A stretch of 64,000 bases of DNA from Gemmatimonadales bacterium (GTDB taxonomy: Bacteria; Gemmatimonadota; Gemmatimonadetes; Gemmatimonadales; GWC2-71-9), in assembly GCA_036500345.1 (NCBI GenBank), contig DASYCE010000011.1, positions 1-64,000 of the forward strand, written 5' to 3'. Position numbers and translations under genes: made by a program. Below, one piece after another: positions 18,088 to 43,944 of this stretch (within the stretch, counting starts at the first letter, position 1; each line of letters begins with the position of its first letter). The notes below the pieces were generated by a model. The model worked only from the letters and a program-made list of their open reading frames with translations. It ran no database searches and had not been told where the DNA came from.

Positions 18088-19425
18088 CTGACGTTCACGT
18101 CGCTCAAGCTCCACCCAGCCTTGCAGAAGAGCCTCAAGGAACTCGGATTCACCCGCCCCACGCCGGTGCAGGCGGAGGCGATCCCGCCGGCCGTCGAAGG
18201 GCGCGACGTCCTGGCGTGCGCCATGACGGGCAGCGGCAAGACTGCCGCGTTTCTCCTTCCGATTCTCAACCGGCTGATCGACCAGCCGCGCCGCACCACG
18301 CGCGCGCTGATCCTCACGCCGACGCGTGAGCTCGCGGCACAGATCCTCGAGGATTGCAACGCGCTGGCGATTCATACGCCGGTGACAGCGGCCGCGATCT
18401 ATGGTGGCGTCGGAATGGGACCGCAGGAACACGCGTTCCGGAGCGGCGTCGACGTGCTGGTCGCGACACCCGGGCGGCTGCTCGATCATTTCAAGTTCTC
18501 GTATGCGCGGCTGACGGGAGTCGAGGTGCTGGTACTCGACGAAGCTGATCGCATGCTCGACATGGGATTCCTCCCCGACATCAAGCGCGTCCTCCGTCAC
18601 GTGCCGGCCAAGCGTCAGACGCTCTTCTTCTCCGCCACGATGCCACCGCCGATTGCCGCGTTGACGCGCGACATGCTTCGCGATCCGGTGTTGATCCGCT
18701 TGCAACGAGAGGCGGCTCCCGCGGTCGGGATCACCCAGGCGGTGTATCCCGTGCCGCAGGATCTCAAGGTCGGTCTGCTCATCGCGCTGCTGCAACGCGG
18801 CGAAATCGACGACGCGCTGGTGTTCACCCGCACCAAGCACCGTGCCGACCGGTTGGCCAAGTATCTGAGCGCGGCCGGGATCCCGGTCGACCGGATTCAC
18901 GGCAATCGCTCGCAGTCGCAGCGCACCGCCGCCCTCCGTGCGTTCAAGAGCGGCCGGGTTCGCGTGCTCGTGGCGACCGATATCGTGGCGCGGGGTATCG
19001 ACATCACCGAGCTCGGCCATGTCGTCAACTTCGACGTCCCCGCGGTGCCGGAGGATTACATCCACCGGGTGGGCCGGACGGCGCGCGCCGCCGCGACGGG
19101 TGATGCATTCACTTTCGTGTCGCCTGCCGAAGAAGAGGATCTGCGGGGGATCGAGCGCGCGCTGGGCAAGAGACTGCCGCGCGTGACGGTGCCGGATTTT
19201 GACTACACTGCCCGCGGAGAGGTGCCGCCGCCGGCGCCGAGACCGCAGGCGCGGCGATCAGGTCAAGCGAAACGCCGGCCACCGGAAGGGGCGCACGGAA
19301 AGACGCCAGCGGCCAAGCCGGTGGCAGGGCCCGGGGCGGGGGCGGGGGCGGGGGCGCGCCCCGCGCGCGATCCGAATTCGTCGCGCAGCAACCGGCGGCG
19401 GCGTTGGCGCGGGAAGCAGGATTGA
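18088..19425 (+). CDS. DEAD-box RNA helicase (RhlE-like)
   Basis: An ATP-dependent RNA helicase with all motifs in order: Q motif GFTRPTPVQAEAIP, I AMTGSGKT, Ia PTRELAAQ, Ib TPGR, II DEAD, III SAT, IV LVFTRTK, V ATDIVARGID, VI HRVGRTAR. The C-terminal tail (~90 residues) is Pro/Ala/Arg-rich and basic, as in RhlE proteins that use a charged tail for RNA binding. The start is a problem. The conserved aromatic residue of the Q motif (FTSLKLHPAL) lies upstream of the first usable TTG (18121), and no ATG or GTG is in frame between it and the terminator. I place the start at CTG 18088, which restores the motif. Confidence 0.85.
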   Translation: MTFTSLKLHPALQKSLKELGFTRPTPVQAEAIPPAVEGRDVLACAMTGSGKTAAFLLPILNRLIDQPRRTTRALILTPTRELAAQILEDCNALAIHTPVTAAAIYGGVGMGPQEHAFRSGVDVLVATPGRLLDHFKFSYARLTGVEVLVLDEADRMLDMGFLPDIKRVLRHVPAKRQTLFFSATMPPPIAALTRDMLRDPVLIRLQREAAPAVGITQAVYPVPQDLKVGLLIALLQRGEIDDALVFTRTKHRADRLAKYLSAAGIPVDRIHGNRSQSQRTAALRAFKSGRVRVLVATDIVARGIDITELGHVVNFDVPAVPEDYIHRVGRTARAAATGDAFTFVSPAEEEDLRGIERALGKRLPRVTVPDFDYTARGEVPPPAPRPQARRSGQAKRRPPEGAHGKTPAAKPVAGPGAGAGAGARPARDPNSSRSNRRRRWRGKQD

Positions 19426-41224: not shown

Positions 41225-42148
41225 ATGAAATCCGGATTCCATGCCCGCTTCGCCGCACTGATCGCTGCTTCGATCCTCGCGGCCTGTTCCGGCTCCGGGT
41301 ACGGCACCACCACGCCGCCACCCCCGCCACCGCCCGCTCCACCACCACCGCCACCACCTCCGCCGCCGCCGCCGCCGGTCACGCAGCATCTCTATCTCGG
41401 GCAGGACGACGTACCAGGGAAGCTTCTCGTCTACAACTTGCCGCTCAGTGCCAGCAGCACGGCGGTCGACAGCGTGCCGTACAATGCCAACGGCTCCCTC
41501 AGCATCAACACGACGACACTCGTGGCAACCCGGATCACGGACCTCAGCGTCTCGTTGTTCCAGCTCCCGCTGACATCGGCGAGCAGTGCGTATGCCACGA
41601 TCCCGGTGGGACTCGTCGAGTATCCGCTCCTCCTGCCGAGCGGTGCACTCTATCTGAGCGCGCGGGACACGATCCACATCTATACGCCGCCGTTCACCAG
41701 CGGTTCGACGCCAGGCAGCCAGCTGGTGACGCCAAACTTCACGGCCGGCATGACCATTGATCCCAACGGCACGGTCTACGCGAGCAATGCAACGCAGATC
41801 GACGTCATCAGCGGCGGTATCCTCACGACAACGCTGACAGCCGCCCCAGGAACCGAATTCGATGCAGTCGCCGCGAGCGCAACGCAGCTCTTCGCGTGCG
41901 AGGGGACCAACATCGCCAGTCATGTCTACATCTATTCGCTGCCGCTCACCGCAAACGCAACTCCCGCGGTGACGATGAATTCAGGAACCATAGGCATCAG
42001 CGGCTGCGCGCTCGATTCGAGCGGCAAGCTCTACCTCACCTGGGGGCCGACGGTCGTTGTCTTTGCTCCGCCGTTCACCAACAGCAGTACTCCCGTCCTC
42101 TCCCTCACCGTCAACGGCGGTGCCAGCGGCATTGCGATCGGACCGTAG
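41225..42148 (+). CDS. Lipoprotein with polyproline linker and repeated beta strands
   Basis: A 307-residue surface protein. A signal sequence ends in the lipobox ILAACSG. A stretch of about 20 prolines with few other residues follows, encoded by CCG/CCA/CCC triplet runs. The remainder (about 65-307) is built from repeats with the pattern LLVYNLPLS or IYIYSLPLT, TSASSAYATI, and closing GGASGIAIGP, as in beta-propeller or SMP-like secreted proteins. The role is unknown. The 250 bases after it, before the next start, hold no gene I can support. Confidence 0.7.
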   Translation: MKSGFHARFAALIAASILAACSGSGYGTTTPPPPPPPAPPPPPPPPPPPPPVTQHLYLGQDDVPGKLLVYNLPLSASSTAVDSVPYNANGSLSINTTTLVATRITDLSVSLFQLPLTSASSAYATIPVGLVEYPLLLPSGALYLSARDTIHIYTPPFTSGSTPGSQLVTPNFTAGMTIDPNGTVYASNATQIDVISGGILTTTLTAAPGTEFDAVAASATQLFACEGTNIASHVYIYSLPLTANATPAVTMNSGTIGISGCALDSSGKLYLTWGPTVVVFAPPFTNSSTPVLSLTVNGGASGIAIGP

Positions 42149-42398
42149 CCGGCGCTTTCACCACTTTCGTTCAGCGCCAGGTTGCCCGCGTGGTCGAACG
42201 GACGGACCAGCAGGCAAGCTGACGAGAAGCTGTCAGCATCCGTCGTTTACGATCCGGATAAAGCCGGATCCGCCTTGCACCGGCATACATGCTGCGTCAC
42301 GATTGAGTCATGATACGCGGGACTCAGCAGCTTTGTCGTCGCCAATCCGAACCAGCGTTCACCGTCGCTGGAGTACGTCGGCCGAGGTTGCGCGCGGC

Positions 42399-43944
42399 GT
42401 GATTGCCATCATCCTCGCCGCGGGCCGCGGGCCGCGGCAGGCGGCTCGGCGATCTCGGCACCGGGATGCCGAAGTGCCTCCTGCCGATCAACGGGCGATC
42501 GTCGCTCGATCTCTACGCCAGCGCCTTCGAGCGCGCCGGGGTGATCGACGAGGTCATCGTGGTGGGCGGCTACCGGATCAATGATGTTCGCAACAGTCTC
42601 CCCGCCGGCTTTCGCCTGATCGACAACCCCGACTACGCCACCACAAACAGCCTGGCGTCACTCGCACTGGCACTGCAGTCGATTCCCGCTGACGACGACA
42701 TCGCGGTCTTCAACGCGGATGTGATCTATCAGCCCGATCTCCTCGGCCGCTTCGTGCGATCGCCGCGACGGACGGCGATGCTGATCGACGAGCTCCGAGA
42801 TCATGACCCGAACGAGTACCAGGTACGGGTCGTCGATGGCATGATCGCGCGCCTCAGTCCGTTGATCCCGCCCGAAGAGTCGTTCGGCCAGGACGCGCAG
42901 GCGTTCAGGATCGCACCAGAGCATTTGCCATTGGTCCGCGACTTCGTGCAGCAGGAGCTCGACGGCGGCGGCCGCACCACGCTTTACAGCGGCTGGGTCC
43001 TGACCATGCTTGCCAAGCAGGGCCTGCTCCATCCGGTGTACACCAACGGCCAGATGTGGAGCGAGTTCGATACTGCCCACGATTACCAGCGATGTGTCGA
43101 ACTCGCGACCGCGGAAGAAGGACGGACGCCGTTCTTCGGATCGTACGGCCTCGACGACACCGCGCCGGTCACCAACGCAGATGAGGATGTCGTGGAGCTG
43201 GCGCAGTTGGAACGCCGGTCGTTCGGCTCGCTGGCGCGGCGCACGTGGGATGCGGTTGCACATGGCAAGCTGCCGTGGCGCCTGCAGTGGCTCGCGGAGT
43301 TGCCGGCGGCCCTGCGTGCCTCACCGCGACGGGCGCTGCGCTGGATGATGCCACTGGCGACTCGCTCGATGACGAGGGAGAGTTTCCGCCTCCAGGTGCA
43401 CGGCGCACGGATGATGGCGGACGTGATGGACGCAGCGGCGGAGGTCGGCATCCGGCCGTACCTGATGTGGGGGACACTCCTCGGCTGCATTCGCGAGGGC
43501 GGCTTCATTCGCGGCGATCATGACGTCGATCTCGGCGTTGCCGACGGGGAGTTCGAACGAATCCCCGAATTGACTGCCCTGATGCTTGCGCGGGAATACA
43601 CGCTGCGTGCAGAGACCGACACCAAGGTGTCGTTCATCCATCCGAAGGTCCCACTCTGGATCGACCTCGACCGATTGGTCGAGTCCCGCGATCACTTCTG
43701 GATCCCCGATCCGCCAGGACAGAACGCGTTCAGACATGCATACTGGTTTCCACGCCCCTCCTTCGAGACGCTGTCGGTGCGCCGCTTCGAAGGGGTCGAT
43801 GTATTCGTGCCGGATGGCGCGGAGGAGATCCTGACGGCGATCTACGGAACGTGGTGGATTCCGCAGCAGAAGCGCCACTTCCAGCGCGGCCCGCTCAATC
43901 TGATGATGCAGGAACAGCCGGTCGGCTCAGTCGTCGAACGTTAG
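42399..43944 (+). CDS. Nucleotidyltransferase-LicD fusion interrupted by a 7-bp duplication
   Basis: A large fusion likely to decorate a surface glycan with a phospho-amine or phospho-polyol. The N-terminal half is a MobA/LicC-like sugar-nucleotidyltransferase (GMPKCLLPING, FNADVIYQPD). The C-terminal half is LicD-like (YLMWGTLLGCIREGGFI, then DHDVDLGVADGEF). The expected start GVIAIILAAGRG is in a different frame from the rest. The tandem copy of CGGGCCG at 42421-42427 and 42428-42434 causes the shift: removing one copy gives the standard LAAGRGRRLGDL signature. A downstream TTG at 42403 could initiate in the second frame but would lack the first strand of the fold. Confidence 0.75.

Follow-up and report, generated by a model that had tools for sequence, protein, structure and literature searches.

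The window, the whole stretch of 64,000 nucleotides analysed here, carries a gene for a nucleotidyltransferase fused to a LicD domain, the frame of which is broken at a short tandem repeat (Table 1); most likely this is a real, local and ordinary slippage frameshift, and the gene a recent null allele. The window lies within contig C11 of the source genome, a 3.32 Mb draft in 32 contigs that is 96% complete. The event is most likely a slip in copying that happened recently and by chance, in a bacterium of environmental type, and not an evolved on/off switch. The initial annotation had described a broken nucleotidyltransferase-LicD gene carrying a 7-bp tandem repeat, a description borne out by our analysis, and had offered phase variation, recent mutation or assembly error as its cause; recent mutation fits best.

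Table 1. Features at the frame break, in window coordinates.
Feature	Position	Strand	Basis
Possible weak Shine-Dalgarno, GAGG (candidate)	42384..42387	+	read from sequence
Upstream frame opened by the likely native GTG: VIAIILAAGRG followed by residues out of frame; 61 codons, stop at 42584	42399..42584	+	
513-aa ORF from a TTG start, body of the nucleotidyltransferase-LicD fusion; begins MPSSSPRAAGRGRRLGD	42403..43944	+	
Three perfect tandem GCCGCGG copies (7-bp unit)	42417..42437	+	repeat detection, sequence
NTP_transf_3 (PF12804), ORF residues 8-120	42424..42762	+	Pfam
LicD domain (PF04991), ORF residues 347-407	43441..43623	+	Pfam

Tandem-repeat detection gave an array of 21 bp with a period of 7, 3.0 copies and 100% matches; it is 100% G+C and contains CCGCGG palindromes. 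The two tandem copies of CGGGCCG first noticed at 42421-42434 are present in the sequence, as the inner two copies of this array read in another phase, but the full array is three copies of GCCGCGG. On its two sides the gene is read in frames that differ by one base, the 513-aa ORF lying +1 relative to the frame of GTG 42399, and the frame arithmetic given earlier holds, since 7 = 1 mod 3 and the ORFs are offset by one base. The upstream frame opens with the usual beginning of a nucleotidyltransferase. The downstream ORF keeps a strong coding signal over 513 codons with no internal stop, suggesting that the event is young or that the gene is still in use. In this new frame the last two GCCGCGG copies encode AAGRG (MPSSSPRAAGRGRRLGD), and the ORF still reads AAGRGRRLGD; it follows from the same arithmetic that the glycine-rich loop is kept. 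Alignment with three relatives shows that VIAIIL (KAVIL or KAVLL in the relatives), a central strand of the nucleotidyltransferase fold, is replaced by the unrelated residues MPSSSPR in the TTG ORF. As encoded, the ORF retains the nucleotide-binding loop and lacks a complete N-terminal strand. The break had been placed at the LAAGxGxR signature, and the frame is indeed broken there, but the signature itself survives and it is the preceding strand that is lost.

Both domains of the fusion exceed their Pfam cut-offs within the one frame of the 513-aa ORF, NTP_transf_3 (PF12804) with 55.1 bits (cut-off 27) and N-terminal positions absent, and LicD (PF04991) with 39.4 bits (cut-off 22.6). The NTP_transf_3 match begins at profile position 5, as against position 1 in the relative G023, and most Pfam and NCBIfam nucleotidyltransferase models likewise begin at position 5-8 in the window ORF, compared with 1-2 for most models in the relatives. 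The N-terminal domain is MobA/LicC-like; its nearest solved relative by sequence is LicC (1jyk, E 4e-4), and IspD matches it very weakly. This gene is the only LicD match in the source genome.

A homologue search of 395 genomes of the phylum at E <= 1e-15 returned matches in seven. Five carry the fusion, namely the source genome, G023, G365 and G370, which match over the full model, and G217, in which the gene is divided between two frames; in G121 and G140 the match is confined to the nucleotidyltransferase part. The fusion occupies a single frame in G023, G365 and G370, with the N-terminus R(K/R)AV(I/L)LAAG(S/R)G, and the window ORF aligns to these three with a five-residue gap exactly at the first strand (KAVIL, KAVLL or RAVIL). 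Between G370 and G365, dN is 0.29 and dS 0.84; these values suggest that the fusion family is under purifying selection in the relatives. All nine genus mates searched lack the fusion gene, and accordingly the two-copy allele of the window gene was not found in any strain and the ancestral copy number was derived from the protein alignment and the frame arithmetic.

Frame-broken fusion genes make up two of the five found. The fusion gene of G217 (L019 about 1800, C48), which shares 94% DNA identity with that of G370, owes its break to a one-base difference, at a site elsewhere than the array, that puts its parts in two frames. The fusion gene of G023 (L053 11195-13053) directly adjoins a tRNA-Pro/Arg/Val cluster, and the window copy is not beside a tRNA; tRNA clusters are common integration sites. 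No viral relative of the fusion was confirmed.

We consider a recent loss-of-function frameshift by slipped-strand copying the probable origin of the break. The gene encodes a MobA/LicC-like nucleotidyltransferase fused to a LicD phosphotransferase, which may couple a phosphorylated small molecule to a nucleotide before passing it on to a cell-surface glycan. With AAGRG spelled in GC-rich codons as GCC GCG GGC CGC GGC, its motif would have amounted to two tandem GCCGCGG copies, and a slip at this site would have produced the third. Ribosomes starting at GTG 42399 would then reach a stop after 61 codons, and the rest of the gene would be open only from the poorly placed TTG 42403, the product of which would have the nucleotide-binding loop and lack the first core strand. 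Reversion by slippage would be possible and is expected to be rare. That slippage was the cause, that activity was lost and that the event is recent we infer from the array, frames, domains and intact relatives that were observed directly; a two-copy ancestor of the window gene is likewise deduced from sequence.

The distribution of such arrays is consistent with this origin. GCCGCGG is the sole perfect 7-bp array of at least three copies in the 210,950-base contig, and none arose in 20 order-2 Markov simulations of the contig; arrays of at least two copies stand at the simulated level (20 observed, simulated mean 22.9). A three-copy heptamer above chance is what would be expected of a slip product. 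An intact nucleotidyltransferase-like gene in G177 spells its AAGRG with exactly two GCCGCGG copies, suggesting that two copies are a natural state. The codon usage of the contig predicts the two-copy spelling for about 2.8% of AAGRG motifs. The two-copy pattern gave 33 matches in 32 of the 395 genomes; among the 30 examined in context, that of G177 is by inspection a real nucleotidyltransferase loop and 29 seem to belong to other genes or to frames open by chance, the remaining three lying outside the examined set. A general habit of AAGRG sites as two-copy repeats was therefore rejected (one real loop in 30 examined matches). Hairpin-driven slippage was rejected as well, since the predicted folding of the array region is not unusual and only slightly stronger than in shuffled sequence (z -0.83).

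Other occurrences of short arrays were also recorded. The exact 21-bp three-copy GCCGCGG array is present in six viral contigs (L023-L028). Hexamer arrays of at least three copies number three on the contig, against none in the simulations, and include four perfect tandem copies of GGGGCG at 19333-19356 of the window.

The true copy number may differ from the assembled one if a GC-rich, partly self-complementary stretch was misassembled or if strain variants were merged. The draft state of the genome and the base composition and palindromes of the array would suit such an artefact, and the break in the G217 fusion indicates that breaks of this kind can occur in drafts of this group. We nevertheless hold it to be unlikely: a coding-frame screen of 210,950 bases, blind to breaks near a gene start, including the window's own, returned 99 direct same-strand frame switches, six of them without a nearby stop, and all six had on inspection the look of ordinary adjacent genes. 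With no other frameshift in this screen, the assembly does not appear rich in frameshifts, and the predicted structure of the strand, as given above, barely exceeds that of shuffled sequence. It is very unlikely, too, that the gene is not broken at all and that translation from TTG 42403 yields a functional protein whose N-terminus is altered. The retained loop and some 500 stop-free codons speak for such a product, and TTG is a legal start that here stands immediately after an in-frame TGA; on the other side, the first core strand that it lacks is kept in all three intact relatives aligned, and the weak GAGG candidate precedes GTG 42399 by 11 nt and TTG 42403 by 15 nt, a spacing that suits the GTG better.

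Evolved phase variation, in which the 7-bp array would often gain and lose copies and so toggle a surface enzyme on and off, seems to us quite improbable. The geometry would suit it, the repeat being frame-shifting and close to the 5' end of a putative surface-modification gene, and the window array just reaches the lowest threshold, three heptamers, at which a simple sequence repeat is counted in the portion of an H. influenzae survey drawn on here (PMC2651432). The hmw arrays in that portion are alike in their 7-bp unit, but they have 13-38 copies in two strains and lie upstream of genes, whereas the window has only three copies, within coding sequence (PMC2651432). Pneumococcal capsule genes switch via short tandem duplications (Waite 2001, 2003, as cited in an excerpt of PMC4022640), which are likewise short, frame-shifting, situated in a surface-polysaccharide gene and potentially revertible. 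The same excerpt expects insertions no longer than 9 bp to revert at a frequency of at most about 1e-5 (PMC4022640). Variable copy number is described for promoter tandem repeats in PMC12817950, the relevant section of which has nothing on 7-bp units. The repeat is not conserved at the locus, since G370, G365 and G217 lack it in the DNA of the motif; the three-copy array occurs in one of 298 genomes of the phylum, the source genome itself; and no second heptamer array of at least three copies exists on the 210,950-base contig. The suggestion of phase variation thus gained no positive support. A variant that makes the catalytic signature itself the slippage site, such that a copy added to the two-copy 7-mer of AAGRG swaps the N-terminus and gives a reversible switch between full and altered protein with the LicD half intact, is highly improbable. 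Taken as a recent chance slip, the locus is a tidy example of codon choice making an active-site motif slippage-prone, and it cautions against deducing phase variation from nothing more than a short tandem duplication in a draft genome. Mixed copy number in reads would make it a contingency locus, in a group whose fusion gene is otherwise unstudied in the literature found.

The analogy to licA and surface phosphocholine drawn in the initial annotation is weak. The source genome, the one genome searched for the choline kinase LicA, has no match to Choline_kinase (PF01633), in a search that was positive in 5 of 14 control genomes, and it has the single LicD match; a phosphocholine surface epitope is therefore unsupported. 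Tailoring or activation of phosphonates (PntC-type) is also unsupported, as the only PEP mutase match in the genome lies below the cut-off (TIGR02320, 26 bits vs 319.55). LicC-like enzymes of phosphonates are treated in part of PMC6697681. The bacterial fusions of an ISPD-type cytidylyltransferase to LicD, as outlined in PMC4873967, resemble the window gene in placing a two-step logic in one chain, but their N-terminal domain is ISPD-type, whereas that of the window gene is MobA/LicC-like (PF12804). The Lic-1 pathway, as summarized in PMC10434233, employs related domains (the cytidylyltransferase LicC and the transferase LicD) in the order of reactions proposed for the window gene; its enzymes are separate, while the two domains of the window gene are fused, and the source genome is without a match to the choline kinase family.

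The gene neighbourhood was considered as a further clue to the substrate. The window carries a lipoprotein-like gene at 41228-42148 (+ strand), which contains a long run of prolines, matches nothing in Pfam or NCBIfam and is 70% identical to one in the genus mate G009, where the neighbours are different. The other window genes from 37-48 kb have no match in the G009 region around this ortholog. The neighbourhood is not conserved relative to G009 and hence provides no substrate hint, and it was rejected as a clue. In G121 (L015 2211-3281), an ORF that by inspection resembles an AEP-pyruvate-type aminotransferase stands next to a related nucleotidyltransferase, which suggests that this locus is a phosphonate cluster.
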